This document shows, in pieces, positions 31,021-35,629 of a DNA stretch of 36,775 bases (position 1 is the first letter of the stretch; each line of letters begins with the position of its first letter). This stretch comes from Leptolyngbyaceae cyanobacterium MAG.088 (GTDB lineage: Bacteria > Cyanobacteriota > Cyanobacteriia > Phormidesmidales > Phormidesmidaceae): assembly GCA_019634055.1 (NCBI GenBank), contig JAHQVZ010000210.1, positions 1-36,775 of the forward strand, in the 5' to 3' direction. A model generated the notes under the pieces. That model was not told the origin of the DNA. It did not search any database and saw only the letters and a list, made by a program, of their open reading frames with translations. The translations under genes were made by a program, and so were the position numbers.

Positions 31021-32520
31021 TCAACGATCAAAAGCTAAGTCTTGCGTGAAATTGCCATGTAACCCATAGGGAATGTGATGTGGGAGTTTCAGTGTTGCTA
31101 CTGGCCCTTGAGTAATGTTTTGGGCGTCTAAAATTGCCAGGTCTGAGCAGTGTCGCTCTGCATTGTAAAACAGACACAAAATCCAGCCATCATCTTCAGC
31201 AGTTCCATGAGGCTTGGGCACAAAGACTGGCTCACCTGCAAAGCCTCGAGGGGCAAAACTCCAAATGTCTTCTTGACCGGTGATCAGGTCTCGCTTCATA
31301 ACAGCCTGCAGTGGTGCATTCCCTTGAGGCTGATGGGCAACACCGATATACACATAGCGATAGGGGCGACCAACATGATTGGGATTGAGGTCTGGAAACT
31401 CACAACCGCGCTCGATCAGGCATTGCGCCTGACCGGTGTTCGTTGCTAGATCTAATTCAAAACGCCATAACTGTCCTTCAGGAATGCGACTAAAATCCGC
31501 CTCCAGGTAATTTTTAGCTCCCTTCAGGTCTGGAAATTCTTGATAGCACACCGAATCTAGGTAAAGTTTGCTATCAGTCTCAAATGCATTGGCATGGTGG
31601 AAAACAAAACAGGGCTGGAGATCAATTGTCTGGATTGGGCTGGTGCCATCTCGCGGAATGATGATCGCCCGGGTGGGCTGTTTAGGATTGAACTGGATAC
31701 ATTCAGCAGCGCCCTTGATACCTGCTAGATAAGGTATTGGGTTAAAGCTAACTGGGTTTTGAAAAAAGATGCAGTAGTTAGGGGTGATAGCAAAGTCGTG
31801 CAGAAATGCGAACCCTGGAATATTACGATTGTGGGTGTGTACCAGCCGACCTTTAAAGTCAAATTCGTAGAGGGTAATGGTGCTAGACAGCCCTGTTTTA
31901 ACGCCAAAGTTGACTAGACGAGGTTCTTTAGTAGTGCCCACTGACGCGTCAGCCTTGGTGCAGTTAGGGTCAATGCGGGGATGGGCTGAAAATGCTTCTC
32001 CTGGCTTGAGTACACCGTCTAAATAATCCAGCCCTAAAGTTTCTAAGGTGATTGGGTCAAGCTGATGGGGTTCTGCTGCTTCCCATAGTGCTAAGAGTTT
32101 GCCGCCCCAGTAAATGACATTGGTGTTAGCAATATTTTTTAAGCGTATATCAAAGGCATTGGCTAAGGGGCCACCGGGTTTTTGAGTACCAAAGACACCC
32201 CGAAATAGGGGTTTACCTGCGGCTTGTTCTTTAAGGTAGCCTTCAGTACGTACAAATCGATTACGAAAGAATGCTTTGCCCTTAGCAATGGCAATAGACA
32301 GAATCATGCCATCGCCATCAAAGGGATGATGTACAGGATGTCCGGCAACGTCGAGTAAACCGGGCCCGTTGCGGAACAATGTGCCGGTTAACTCGGCAGG
32401 AATGGTGCCATCGATATCCTCGATTTCATAGGCATATTCATTAGGCTGCGAGCGATAGCCACTGCGCCAATCATCCATATCAAAATCGTGAGATGGTCTG
32501 GGAGAGGAGATTGTTTGCAT
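31021..32520 (-). CDS. Carotenoid (apocarotenoid) cleavage oxygenase
   Basis: A 499-residue non-heme iron dioxygenase of the RPE65/CCD family, a seven-bladed beta-propeller that splits carotenoids or apocarotenals. The four iron-binding histidines are recognisable: H180 in AFSAHPRIDPN, H241 in FAFLHDFAITPNYC, H308/H309 in FHHANAFE and one near 491 in IPYGLHGNF. LFRNGPGLLDVAGHPVHHPFDGDGM at the N-terminus is the usual opening. The closest characterised relative by pattern is the cyanobacterial apocarotenoid 15,15'-oxygenase, which yields retinal, but the substrate cannot be fixed by sequence reading. It follows the transporter gene by 66 bases on the same strand, perhaps one operon. Confidence 0.93.
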   Translation of the reverse strand: MQTISSPRPSHDFDMDDWRSGYRSQPNEYAYEIEDIDGTIPAELTGTLFRNGPGLLDVAGHPVHHPFDGDGMILSIAIAKGKAFFRNRFVRTEGYLKEQAAGKPLFRGVFGTQKPGGPLANAFDIRLKNIANTNVIYWGGKLLALWEAAEPHQLDPITLETLGLDYLDGVLKPGEAFSAHPRIDPNCTKADASVGTTKEPRLVNFGVKTGLSSTITLYEFDFKGRLVHTHNRNIPGFAFLHDFAITPNYCIFFQNPVSFNPIPYLAGIKGAAECIQFNPKQPTRAIIIPRDGTSPIQTIDLQPCFVFHHANAFETDSKLYLDSVCYQEFPDLKGAKNYLEADFSRIPEGQLWRFELDLATNTGQAQCLIERGCEFPDLNPNHVGRPYRYVYIGVAHQPQGNAPLQAVMKRDLITGQEDIWSFAPRGFAGEPVFVPKPHGTAEDDGWILCLFYNAERHCSDLAILDAQNITQGPVATLKLPHHIPYGLHGNFTQDLAFDR

Positions 32521-32586: not shown

Positions 32587-33972
32587 CTATAACAATGTTG
32601 TCAGCACTGGTTCTGGTGTTGACGAGTCTTCATCGGTTTCTCCAGGTAATTCATCTACTGTGGTGTCTGAGGAGGCCGAGGCACTGGGTAGTAAAAACAG
32701 GAGTGGTAATGGCAACAGAGTGGTCGCATTTGTAATGGTGACCAGCAACCATAGATTTTCAAAATCTGTTTCAGTGACATGCAGCCAATGGGTTAATAAA
32801 GCACCCAGCTCATGGGACAGCAGCCCTGCTAGGTTAACAATTGACATTAATAGAGCAAATAGCGTGGCTTCGACACCAGCAGGGCATAGCCGGGCTGCCA
32901 GCACCAGTACAGGCATAAATGCGATCTGGCCCATCATGGTGAGAATGGCATTGTCACCTAAGCTAAACCAGTGATCTTCAATGCCTAAACTGCGGTTGGC
33001 ATGGGTCACTAATAACAGTGTTGTCATACCCCCAAGGCAGGACAGTATTGTGGACCAGGCAAAAATCGTGCGAAATGGGACAGCTTTTAAGAAACGCTGA
33101 AAAATAGCGATACCTAGTAGGGCGGCTATGCTCGTGATTAACTTTACACGACCTAAGAATTCAGGCTCGAATCCTAAGTCGTTGGTTGTAAAAAAGAAGA
33201 AAGCTGAGTCTGCACTCGGTGTGGATTGCCACAAAAATAAAAAGATTGCAGGCATCCAAATGGCCCGTTGACTAATGGCTACCTTAAGCTGTTTTACTTG
33301 ATTCCAGACAGTGTGAAAGCCTGTTTTTTCTTGGACAGGCTCCTCTGTAATCAGCCAGGCGACACAGGAAACAATCAGGGGAAAGGTTGCTGTGACAGCA
33401 AAGACAACGCGAGTACTGGTTTGTGCGAGTAAGAGGCCGCCAAGATAGGCTGTGATCACACCACCCACTGCGGAGGCTCCCCAGGAAAGTGACTGTAATG
33501 TACCGGTTTCGCTCTGGGATTCTTCACGGGCCCTTTCGACCACTAGAGAATCAATAATGACGTCTGAGATAGCCACAGACAATGACACTAGTAAGAGCAT
33601 GATGCCGGCTAACCAAGCCGTATGTACCAGGGTTGCTAATATTAGCCAGGCAACTGTTCCTAGCAAACCCGAGAGAATGAGATAAGGCCGTCTACGATAA
33701 CCAATAATGGGTAATCCATCGGATAAGAAACCAAAGAGCGGTTTGATAGTCCAGGGTAGGGTAGCTAGACCAGTCAGTGCTGCCATCTCTGCAGGACTGA
33801 GGCCCAAATCATCTTTCAGAAAAAAACTGACCGCTAACCGTGCTAGCCCTAGAATGCCTTGTACGAAATAAACCAGCAAAATTGCGGTTAGTTCAGTAGT
33901 GAGAGGCCGACCCAGTAAAATACGTTTTTCTAGAAAATGCTTGAAACCTTTGGAGTCGGCGGTTGCGGTCAT
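32587..33972 (-). CDS. Folate/biopterin-family (BT1/FBT) transporter
   Basis: A 461-residue membrane protein with about twelve hydrophobic helices, belonging to the folate-biopterin transporter branch of the major facilitator superfamily. Typical segments are LLVYFVQGILGLARLAVSFFLKDDLGLSPAEMAALTGLATLPWTIKPLFGFLSDGLPIIGYRRRPYL at the N-terminus and DVIIDSLVVERARE (about 135-148), a signature of this family. A polar, Asp/Glu-rich tail closes the protein. Family members move folates, pterins or related compounds across the inner membrane. The ATG at 33972 is preceded by a palindrome-bearing promoter region. It is co-directional with the carotenoid oxygenase; a metabolic link is not obvious. Confidence 0.9.
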   Translation of the reverse strand: MTATADSKGFKHFLEKRILLGRPLTTELTAILLVYFVQGILGLARLAVSFFLKDDLGLSPAEMAALTGLATLPWTIKPLFGFLSDGLPIIGYRRRPYLILSGLLGTVAWLILATLVHTAWLAGIMLLLVSLSVAISDVIIDSLVVERAREESQSETGTLQSLSWGASAVGGVITAYLGGLLLAQTSTRVVFAVTATFPLIVSCVAWLITEEPVQEKTGFHTVWNQVKQLKVAISQRAIWMPAIFLFLWQSTPSADSAFFFFTTNDLGFEPEFLGRVKLITSIAALLGIAIFQRFLKAVPFRTIFAWSTILSCLGGMTTLLLVTHANRSLGIEDHWFSLGDNAILTMMGQIAFMPVLVLAARLCPAGVEATLFALLMSIVNLAGLLSHELGALLTHWLHVTETDFENLWLLVTITNATTLLPLPLLFLLPSASASSDTTVDELPGETDEDSSTPEPVLTTLL

Positions 33973-34052
33973 ATATGTGGAAAACCTTTAAGAAATGTCA
34001 ATCTTTTTTATCATAACGATTCTAATAGTATTGCTCTAGGGCTACTGGCATG

Positions 34053-34067
34053 AATCTACGGTAGATT
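34053..34067. promoter_or_regulatory. Perfect 7-1-7 palindrome upstream of the transporter gene
   Basis: AATCTAC-G-GTAGATT is an exact inverted repeat about 80 bases upstream of the transporter's ATG (minus strand). Its size and symmetry suit a dimeric repressor or activator site, but no regulator is known for it. Confidence 0.4.
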
Positions 34068-34141
34068 GCTCACAGACTTGCGGGTATAGACTGTCGGAAG
34101 CTTTAGGGCGTAGGGGCCACGGGTTATTAGCAGAAGGCTAT

Positions 34142-34169
34142 AAAAAAAGGGCCACAAATTTGTGGCCCC
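34142..34169 (-). terminator. Rho-independent terminator of the repeat-protein gene
   Basis: A perfect palindrome, GGGCCACAAATTTGTGGCCC (34149-34168), is followed on the minus strand by seven T. It lies 46 bases after the stop of the gene at 34215 and ahead of the transporter promoter. Confidence 0.88.
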
Positions 34170-34214
34170 GAATTCTGACTTATTTGAAAACAATTACCTG
34201 AGCTGGTGCTGTGA

Positions 34215-34508
34215 CTATGACTTGTCACGGGCATCTAAAGCATCAAGACGATATTGCTGAATAGTAGTGTTTGTAATTGGATCACTACTTTTAGTTCTGA
34301 CGTCTAGCTCATCTAAACGGCGTTGTTGCAATGTTGTATTAATTAGCGAATCGCTGTTCTTAGTGCGTATATCGAGGGCATCTAAGCGACGCTGTTGAAT
34401 GGTTGTGTTGACTAAAGAATCGTTATTAGGAGATTTTGCTTCAACAGCAGGTGCGATCGCAGCAGCAGCCAATAAAACAGATAAACCAGAAAGTACGAAG
34501 CGTTTCAT
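34215..34508 (-). CDS. Small exported protein made of three 23-residue repeats
   Basis: A 97-residue protein with a strong GGAGGA ribosome-binding site 6 bases before the ATG. Residues 1-24 are a signal peptide (KRFVLSGLSVLLAAAAIAP, cleavage near VEA). The remainder is three tandem 23-residue repeats at 29-51, 52-74 and 75-97, each of the form [NS]D[SP]L-[VI]NTT[IL]QQ-[RY]RLD-[AE]LD-[IVA]R-[TD]K. The repeats would each form one amphipathic helix with Leu/Ile at i, i+3/4 positions. It ends exactly at the end of the third repeat. It is probably secreted or periplasmic, and I know no family for it. It has its own terminator downstream, and a 153-base leader separates it from the DUF4330 gene. 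Confidence 0.82.
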   Translation of the reverse strand: MKRFVLSGLSVLLAAAAIAPAVEAKSPNNDSLVNTTIQQRRLDALDIRTKNSDSLINTTLQQRRLDELDVRTKSSDPITNTTIQQYRLDALDARDKS

Positions 34509-34632
34509 AGTGTGTCCTCCAAAAATTGAAGAAGGTTAAACGTTTGATTACCTTCAACGATGGAAAACAGATCTGAAACGCTTCTGATAGAAGACTGAGA
34601 GTCTCTAGAAAACTTCCTTATAGTTGGCTGAG

Positions 34633-34658
34633 AAAAATGTATTTTAAATTACATTTTT
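34633..34658 (-). terminator. AT-only hairpin after the DUF4330 gene
   Basis: AAAAATGTA (34633-34641) and TACATTTTT (34650-34658) form a 9-bp stem with an 8-base loop, 4 bases after the stop at 34662. The T-run in the arm gives a terminator-like look, but the weak A/T stem makes efficient termination uncertain. It could act in either direction. Confidence 0.42.
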
Positions 34659-34661
34659 TCC

Positions 34662-35195
34662 CTACGACTCAGGGATACGCACAGCAACAGTACTGGCTTT
34701 GAAATTGTAAATTTTCCCCTCTAGCTCAATCGGGGTACCGATTTTAACTTTGCTATTGCCAAATACAGGGCCATCATCAGTAATTTGGGCAGACCCAGCT
34801 AAGGTGATTAACATATCAGCCGTATAGCCAAGTTCTGGGCGAGGGTCATCAAATGATTTCACTGAACCATCAGGTTGCGCCACAGCAGTGCTTCGAGGTA
34901 GTGGTTTGACGTCTTTAACCGTTACCTGACCGTAGGGCTGATTACGAATAATGATGTTGGTTGTCCCTTCTGACTTCAAATCCTCTAAAAACTGTTCGGG
35001 GTTTAACACGGTTAAACCACGGGCGATCAAATCGACCTCAATTTCTTGATTCACTGCGCCTACCTGGGCAACTGAACCAGAGGTGCCAGGGTAGAAAAAG
35101 ACGGCGACTGCCACCATCAGGATGATTAACCCTGCACCAATGTCTAGCAGGCTAATTTTGCCAAATAAGCGTCCCTTAGAATCCAAAATAGCCAT
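34662..35195 (-). CDS. DUF4330 domain-containing membrane-anchored protein
   Basis: 177 residues from the ATG at 35195, which has AGGA just upstream; an ATG at 35246 would add 17 residues without family support. MAILDSKGRLFGKISLLDIGAGLIILMVAVAVFFYP is the typical DUF4330 start: a short cytoplasmic segment with one membrane helix (about 15-35). A soluble domain follows, with strands such as EIEVDLIARGLTVLNPEQF, TNIIIRNQPYGQVTVKDVKPLPR, ELGYTADMLITLAGSAQITDDGPVFGNSKVKIGTPIELEG and KASTVAVRI. DUF4330 proteins are widespread in cyanobacteria and of unknown function. It is divergent from the M48 protease gene across 434 bases. Confidence 0.88.
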   Translation of the reverse strand: MAILDSKGRLFGKISLLDIGAGLIILMVAVAVFFYPGTSGSVAQVGAVNQEIEVDLIARGLTVLNPEQFLEDLKSEGTTNIIIRNQPYGQVTVKDVKPLPRSTAVAQPDGSVKSFDDPRPELGYTADMLITLAGSAQITDDGPVFGNSKVKIGTPIELEGKIYNFKASTVAVRIPES

Positions 35196-35629
35196 AAATC
35201 CTGGCACTCCGAATATTTCCCAATAGTTGAGCACCGGTAAAAGCACTCATTATTTCAAGCGATAATGTAACAGACATGCAACATCTCCCTAGGTCCTAGG
35301 GATTGCAATCGTTAGTATTTAATCATGGGGCGGTCAGGTTCGCGGGAGACAAACCTGTAAATCGGTATTTGTCTGCCAGGCTATTAGGCAGATGACACTA
35401 TATTTGGATAAGACATCCGCTATTTATCCCATGTTGTCTTGTAGCTTGACTGTTTACACTAGGTGTAGTGATTAAAATCACAGTCAATTAACTGTCACAG
35501 CCCATGGGGAAAGCTGTTGAGGCTGTCGCTATGGTCAAACTATGGATATTGTCTTGATACTTGCTACTGGTAGCTCCAAGATTGACAGTATCCACGCTTT
35601 ATTCGCCGTTTCATTACAGTAAGCTGACC
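35196..35629. promoter_or_regulatory. Divergent promoter region with three palindromes
   Basis: No gene is seen in 434 bases. TCCCTAGG-T-CCTAGGGA (35286-35302) is a perfect 8-1-8 palindrome. TACAC-TAG-GTGTA (35455-35467) touches a CRP/FNR-type dyad, AGTGATTAAAATCACA (35467-35482). TTGACT at 35446-35451 could be a -35 box for the plus-strand protease gene, with the dyad where the -10 would fall; no clear -10 is seen. The region presumably drives both the DUF4330 and M48 genes. Confidence 0.45.
35467..35482. promoter_or_regulatory. Candidate CRP/FNR-family operator
   Basis: AGTGATTAAAATCACA contains the dyad GTGAT-N4-ATCAC and fits the GTGA-N6-TCACA half of the CRP consensus. It lies about 148 bases before the M48 gene and 272 before the DUF4330 gene. 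It shares its ten symmetric positions with the site at 14422. Confidence 0.5.

Follow-up and report, generated by a model that had tools for sequence, protein, structure and literature searches.

CpxP, Spy, and ZraP are small, exported, helical proteins that, in the known cases, stand under OmpR-type regulators and carry an LTxxQ motif. The gene considered here lies in a 36,775-nt stretch of DNA (the window) from Leptolyngbyaceae cyanobacterium MAG.088, and its product (the window protein) resembles them in being small and, by prediction, helical and exported. A direct-repeat array of the kind that could serve an OmpR-type regulator lies upstream; LTxxQ is absent from its 97 aa (by eye), and tandem repeats and a multigene family are found here instead. 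Among cyanobacterial proteins, EbfG1–4 of Synechococcus elongatus are biofilm-enabling small secreted proteins (PMC8092324). As far as the consulted sections of that report describe them, they are likewise small, multicopy, and encoded by genes that are switched on together, but they have a GG leader, depend on PteB for export, and lack a tandem repeat (PMC8092324). The window protein, in contrast, begins with a Sec-type N-terminus and, by eye, contains no GG. We know of no sequence relation between EbfG and the window protein. EF-hand and dockerin domains (PF13202, PF00036, and PF00404) have a 23-residue loop-plus-helix unit (loop of 12, helix of 11) to which the window repeat may correspond, and the exit-helix pattern IQE.RL..LD occurs in related small exported proteins, but the window repeats do not keep the calcium ligands and the similarity is only suggestive. 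For the upstream region, the closest described elements are cyanobacterial CRP sites, given as TGTGAN6TCACA in the consulted part of a study that describes an effect of SyCRP1 on pili and motility (PMC2633013), and the direct-repeat boxes of OmpR/PhoB-family regulators, namely the cyanobacterial Pho box with three tandem repeats of core TTAA (PMC11126600, in part) and the CopR box TTCATN4-5TTCAT (PMC4182526, in part).

The gene, its product, and its conservation

The gene and its surroundings comprise the following features, given as window coordinates and strand with the basis for each.

34215..34508, −: ORF of 97 aa with an ATG start, encoding a predicted exported repeat protein of family type A (ORF calls; orthologs in 8 of 8 genus genomes)
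34437..34508, −: signal-peptide-like segment, residues 1–24, with no Cys after it and therefore not that of a lipoprotein (by eye; kept in 8 of 8 orthologs)
34359..34427, −: repeat 1, residues 28–50, NNDSLVNTTIQQRRLDALDIRTK (self-comparison)
34290..34358, −: repeat 2, residues 51–73, NSDSLINTTLQQRRLDELDVRTK (self-comparison)
34221..34289, −: repeat 3, residues 74–96, SSDPITNTTIQQYRLDALDARDK (self-comparison)
34516..34520, −: Shine-Dalgarno sequence GGAGG, 5' of the ATG (sequence reading)
34142..34169, −: intrinsic terminator, a 9-bp hairpin followed by T7 (folding against shuffles)
34535..34558, −: possible 5'-UTR hairpin (z −1.37, reached by 19 of 200 shuffles)
32587..33972, −: downstream neighbor, an MFS transporter of the folate/biopterin family (TIGR00788, 442.8 bits, cut-off 216.4; neighbor in 8 of 8 genomes)
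34662..35246, −: upstream neighbor of 194 aa with one N-terminal hydrophobic segment (neighbor in 8 of 8 genomes)

An earlier note on this DNA had read the ORF at 34215–34508 on the reverse strand as a 97-aa exported protein with three 23-residue repeats, a ribosome-binding site, and a terminator of its own, and each of these elements holds. A shift of 23 residues is the best self-shift of the protein with 32 identities, compared with a maximum of 14 in 2,000 shuffles, and the three units are identical to one another in 18, 15, and 14 of 23 positions; GGAGG precedes the ATG, and the terminator hairpin folds at −16.8 kcal/mol (z −4.98), a value equaled by none of 200 shuffles. The N-terminal segment, read by eye, ends in APAVEA with K as the next residue, and export is accordingly a prediction from sequence. 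The statement that the protein is nothing but repeats apart from its signal peptide is right for the three units but leaves out a short linker (residues 25–27) and a single trailing Ser (residue 97). The DNA of the units is only 55–68% identical from unit to unit, which indicates that the repeats are old. The possible hairpin in the 5'-UTR was rejected as a riboregulator because it is no better than shuffled sequence, and an Rfam search of 33900–34800 gave no match up to an E value of 1.

One ortholog is present at the same locus in each of the eight genus genomes (own genome included), and these proteins are 68–86% identical to the window protein. The synteny comparison covers 13 loci, five of which are second copies from the same genomes (L038–L042). 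Three repeats are found in seven of the eight orthologs and four in that of L015 (Leptothoe kymatousa), so that the variation in repeat number among strains raised by the earlier note does occur. Repeats 1–3 each keep their own position-specific residues across the orthologs. Among six genomes compared (L014 and L015 differ in length and were left out), window pairs with computable dS have dN of 0.09–0.15, dS of 1.4–2.2, and dN/dS of 0.05–0.08, and dS is saturated in most other ortholog pairs. The ORF is a real gene under strong purifying selection. The 194-aa protein encoded upstream has no NCBIfam match. Farther along the window, the product of 31021–32520 on the reverse strand, read by eye, is presumably a carotenoid-cleavage-oxygenase-like protein, and a gene of this type sits near the same neighbors in L038, L041, and L042.

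That no known family resembles this protein, as the earlier note put it, is borne out by the databases searched, since it falls within no family of Pfam, NCBIfam, or PDB: the best Pfam match (Importin_rep_2) scores 16 bits where the cut-off is 26.9, all NCBIfam matches are far under their cut-offs, and no PDB chain matches at an E value of 10 or less. Unit strings in the PMC literature, which leaves preprints aside, led to unrelated papers only. The repeat-protein family is thus apparently undescribed.

The same note had proposed an amphipathic helix for each unit and, as one possibility, an envelope-binding peptide. The helical part of this proposal fits an AlphaFold2 model with helices at residues 30–74 and 77–96, though its mean pLDDT is only 60 (poor). 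The amphipathic part does not stand: the three units have mean hydrophobic moments of 0.07–0.17, values that 76–96% of same-letter shuffles reach, and they are uniformly hydrophilic, so that an amphipathic peptide binding membrane or envelope is not suggested by the sequence. For the same low moments we rejected a repeat of the apolipoprotein/synuclein type, which has a hydrophobic face in each repeat.

Paralogs and their distribution

The family is larger than the earlier note saw, being multigene with a common promoter architecture. In the own draft genome there are, besides fragments, at least six more members, two of which lie in tandem, and locus reading gives at least 12 members in G003, at least 10 in G004, and at least 11 in G007; raw match numbers in relatives, in which repeats are counted twice, exceed these gene counts. 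In marine filamentous cyanobacteria of this group, this small, predicted exported repeat protein, which has no name in the family databases, is present in at least ten copies. The genomes that bear a name are those of Leptolyngbya sp. PCC 7375, Leptolyngbya sp. Heron Island J, Leptolyngbya cf. ectocarpi, Adonisia turfae, and Leptothoe kymatousa. Three types are distinguished. Type A, that of the window gene, has the 23-aa unit and is single-copy and chromosomal; type B has units of 16/18 aa (e.g., AVDNIQEARLDALDARTK), of which a protein contains as many as about ten (regular-expression count); and type C has 15-aa FDELRRENLDKDAVN units (FDELRRENLDK). Units of types A and B are related (hhalign probability 97% between the 23-aa and 18-aa types), whereas the hhalign comparison of A with C units found no relation (score 9.5), and type C is tied to A and B by signal peptide and promoter only. 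Across paralogs the unit core (I/L)QxxRLxxLDxRxK is conserved and the linkers have 2, 4, or 9 residues. Because the same core recurs with linkers of such different length, no fixed solenoid phase would be kept, and we infer beads rather than a solenoid. AlphaFold2 gives a type-B paralog as one helix from residue 2 to 169 (mean pLDDT 89, pTM 0.40), a kind of model that is easily over-predicted for repetitive charged sequence, and a PDB fold search with it returned no matches.

A wide distribution was rejected after a search of 386 genomes sampled from the phylum, in which a type-B query matched one genome, its own, and a type-C query matched five, two strongly and in the same GTDB family and three weakly. 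Among 95 relatives searched, 50 match at an E value of 1 or less, many of them weakly and on the strength of the signal peptide, and weak class-level matches (e.g., L025) likewise look like signal-peptide similarity. As far as sampled, the family is restricted to one GTDB family. A phage or plasmid origin was also rejected, as a type-B paralog matches none of 50,697 phage and 72,556 plasmid records. Type B does pass the Pfam cut-off for RHH_3 (22.8 bits, cut-off 21.6), a match that we attribute to repeat composition and set aside, given that no stretch passes alone.

Thirty-six type-B loci share homology that extends about 150 bp upstream of the start and then stops; downstream, where measurable, it mostly runs about 150 bp past the stop codon, with a few loci longer or shorter. 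The ends of this homology coincide with a CRP-type dyad and a terminator, that is, with the limits of the transcription unit, and constraint therefore explains them; a mobile cassette was rejected on the ground that promoter and terminator account for the fixed extent. In G003, family copies lie on contigs of 344 and 157 kb. Five type-B copies (L043, L044, L048, L054, and L055) adjoin a gene that is UmuC-like by eye, and beside this gene the downstream homology reaches the end of the compared stretch. At L122:1501 on the reverse strand in G001, a full type-B promoter and leader are followed by a terminator with no family ORF, possibly a deleted copy, and a type-B-like copy in G003 (L053) is interrupted by stops where its relative in G004 (L061) is open.

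Promoter boxes and their occurrence across genomes

Upstream of the window gene lie the following elements.

34573..34598, −: three TCAG boxes with a period of 11 bp (TCAGTCTTCTATCAGAAGCGTTTCAG), an OmpR/PhoB-type direct-repeat array (conserved upstream pattern)
34628..34631, −: further upstream TCAG box (TCAGCCAA) (same place in paralog promoters)
34638..34653, no strand: CRP/FNR-superfamily-type dyad TGTAATTTAAAATACA (conservation and place; CRP form TGTGATTTAAATCACA in 4 of 8 orthologs)

In the family upstream regions listed, TCAG boxes step every 11 bp. An 11-bp TCAG pair is present in 53 of 82 distinct upstream regions (letter shuffles average 0.32) and a strict triple in 45, 29 lack the pair, and the array usually includes one TTAA besides the TCAG cores. 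A TGTGAN6TCACA dyad with at least 9 of 10 matches occurs in 42 of 81 upstream regions (shuffles 0.46), nearly always at −139 to −166, with two at −106 where a longer ORF reading shifts the start. These regions are partly kin by descent, so that the 53 and the 42 are not independent events, and we take the TCAG array as evidence of a kept element rather than of 53 separate inventions. The window dyad matches 7 of 10 positions of the CRP consensus and has one arm mismatch (TGTAA..ATACA), and within the window alone such a dyad is no rarer than chance, so that the evidence for it is conservation and place. Seven of the eight type-A orthologs have perfect five-base arms, of the forms TGTGA..TCACA (four), TGTAG..CTACA (two), and TGTAT..ATACA (one). 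This joint change of both arms points to a putative dimeric regulator of the CRP/FNR kind. The window dyad also fits the NtcA form GTAN8TAC.

Set against the cyanobacterial CRP sites in the consulted part of PMC2633013, the type-A dyads (perfect in 4 of 8 orthologs) and the type-B form TGTGAN6TCACC are alike, whereas the window gene and three orthologs carry TGTAN8TACA-like forms. With the Pho box (PMC11126600) and the CopR box (PMC4182526), as partly consulted, the array shares the direct-repeat arrangement for OmpR/PhoB-family regulators, but its core is TCAG, its period is 11, and it usually contains a single TTAA. Membership in the Pho regulon (PhoB/SphR), with its three-repeat box of core TTAA, was rejected on account of this TCAG core; neither a TTAA nor a TCAG triple occurs at any of the eight PBP_like_2 loci searched.

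The 5.1-Mb own genome contains seven strict TCAG triples, four of them before family genes, and none in the reversed control, and the eight genus genomes together have 68 against 7 in the control. Across all genomes of the GTDB family this excess shrinks, with control sites equaling sites in some of them, so that single triple sites outside the genus may be chance. Reading 62 non-genus sites by eye (with examples named via Pfam and NCBIfam), we found 18 before exported proteins and 44 before other or no clear genes. The 18 comprise six type-C proteins, three EF-loop peptides (L190, L226, and L227), six YHS-domain lipoproteins, two DUF547 lipoproteins, and one DPCAA-repeat lipoprotein. The shared boxes provide a list of candidate co-regulated envelope genes and a testable regulator.

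Several sites deserve mention in their own right. The non-genus YHS-domain lipoproteins with an upstream triple are those of L162, L171, L174, L201, L207, and L220, some of which have NPCAA repeats. Arsenosugar-type arsM genes have a triple about 80 bp before them in three genus genomes (L136:2001, L137:2001, and L132:1501), and the ArsM of L136 matches NF038099 with 579.6 bits; a DEP-domain gene has one in L142, L143, and L121, also three genus genomes. At L140 and L141 a triple accompanies a 60-aa exported protein that ends in FHDLLRHNRGVRDKS or near it and looks like another sibling peptide family. In two genera a large response regulator is divergent from a family gene at a distance of 110–160 bp (L096:3423-5771 and L083:673-2751), the former with receiver, Trans_reg_C, Hpt, and GGDEF domains. 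We do not put this candidate forward as the regulator of the family, since no TCAG array precedes either of these two family genes and regulators like it are numerous in the genus.

Possible roles and origin of the repeat

Beyond the gene itself, its conservation, its paralogs, and their shared promoter plan, all of which are established, we tentatively favor the reading, still short of probable, that the type-A protein, one member of a family of small, predicted exported proteins with tandem repeats that is confined to this lineage as far as sampled, acts as a soluble, multivalent, helical binder in the periplasm, on the outer surface, or in the sheath. The gene would be transcribed as a single cistron when an OmpR/PhoB-type response regulator and a factor of the CRP/FNR type are active, and its product would leave the cytoplasm through Sec, with cleavage behind residue 24. 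The remaining 73 residues of the mature protein would make up a hydrophilic and soluble string, largely helical, whose core (I/L)QxxRLxxLDxRxK would act as the bead that binds, while the linkers from one bead to the next can differ; a partner in one of the three compartments might then be bound multivalently, with repeat number and gene number tuning avidity and dose. A surface or biofilm-related role would be a first guess, prompted by the connection that the consulted part of PMC2633013 draws between cyanobacterial CRP and pili and motility, and nothing shown here favors the surface over the periplasm.

The binder reading has to be weighed against several others. An unlikely yet serious one is a periplasmic stress protein, a chaperone or a metal/metalloid buffer like CpxP, Spy, or ZraP, made on demand through an OmpR-type two-component system when the envelope or the metal balance is disturbed. 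The OmpR/PhoB-like array before family genes would suit such a protein, as would its presence before other small exported proteins and before YHS-domain, DUF547, and Cys-rich lipoproteins (18 of 62 non-genus sites, of which 9 are family or EF-type) and before arsenosugar ArsM in three genomes, but the ArsM and YHS links are motif matches only and the reversed control shows that some sites are chance. Moreover, the CRP-type dyad is more in keeping with control by carbon/cAMP than with folding stress, and the window protein has neither LTxxQ nor Cys nor His, with no sequence relation found in Pfam. It is improbable that the protein is a precursor of short repeat-derived peptides, signals or bacteriocin-like, that are cut between units at their basic RTK/RDK ends. 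Near-identical units with a basic tripeptide at the end and many paralogs, several with up to about ten copies, are what one would look for, yet unit lengths and linkers differ between types, no processing or export partner gene recurs beside the type-A and family loci compared, and the retention of individual residues by each of repeats 1–3 in orthologs is unexpected for interchangeable products. The bounded homology of the 36 type-B loci, about 150 bp upstream and, where measurable, mostly about 150 bp downstream, and the copies on the two large contigs of G003 could instead reflect a selfish cassette of promoter, gene, and terminator copied round the genome with no cell function needed. This we consider highly improbable: the bounds are those of a working transcription unit, neither end repeats nor an integrase was seen, and the window gene does not move, keeping one locus in 8 of 8 genomes.

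The remaining alternative, to which we give little credence, sees in the 23-residue unit an EF-hand loop with its exit helix, degenerate but still sensing or binding Ca2+. In some small exported relatives a single EF-hand loop runs into IQE.RL..LD, together 23 residues, and the unit of these similarity-found proteins aligns with the window unit in register, columns 8–22 to columns 8–22, with hhalign scores of 20.4 (0 of 100 column shuffles as good) and 23.1 (0 of 60, similarity-found set) against a shuffled maximum of 12.8; these relatives were picked by similarity to the window protein, which makes the score partly circular. The three promoter-found EF-loop peptides, in contrast, do not align with the window unit (score 6.0, reached by 43 of 60 shuffles), and they align with the similarity-found set through the loop. 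Pfam EF-hand matches of the EF-loop relatives are below the curated cut-off, and the window protein has none. A canonical EF-hand or dockerin loop, acidic at 1, 3, and 5 with Glu/Asp at 12, was rejected, as the window units have N/S at 1, D at 3, L/I at 5, V/I/T at 6, and Q at 12; with positions 5, 6, and 12 hydrophobic or Gln, canonical Ca2+ binding is not expected. A common origin of the window repeat and the EF-loop unit is suggestive from sequence and, if true, would offer a route from a short calcium-loop unit to a different repeat protein. A broader extension of the binder reading, which we regard as doubtful, is that a single EF-hand-type loop-helix peptide gave rise to a large, loop-less exported helical arsenal of variable repeat number, spread over the chromosome and large extra contigs under one promoter plan (CRP/FNR-type dyad plus OmpR-type array) with a TCAG consensus that none of the papers searched describes; the arsenal would be a tunable toolkit for the surface or envelope, and the window gene its fixed chromosomal member. 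On the side of calcium responsiveness also stands the arrangement in G011, where EF-loop genes flank a type-A-like gene on both sides, on the same strand and across a contig break.
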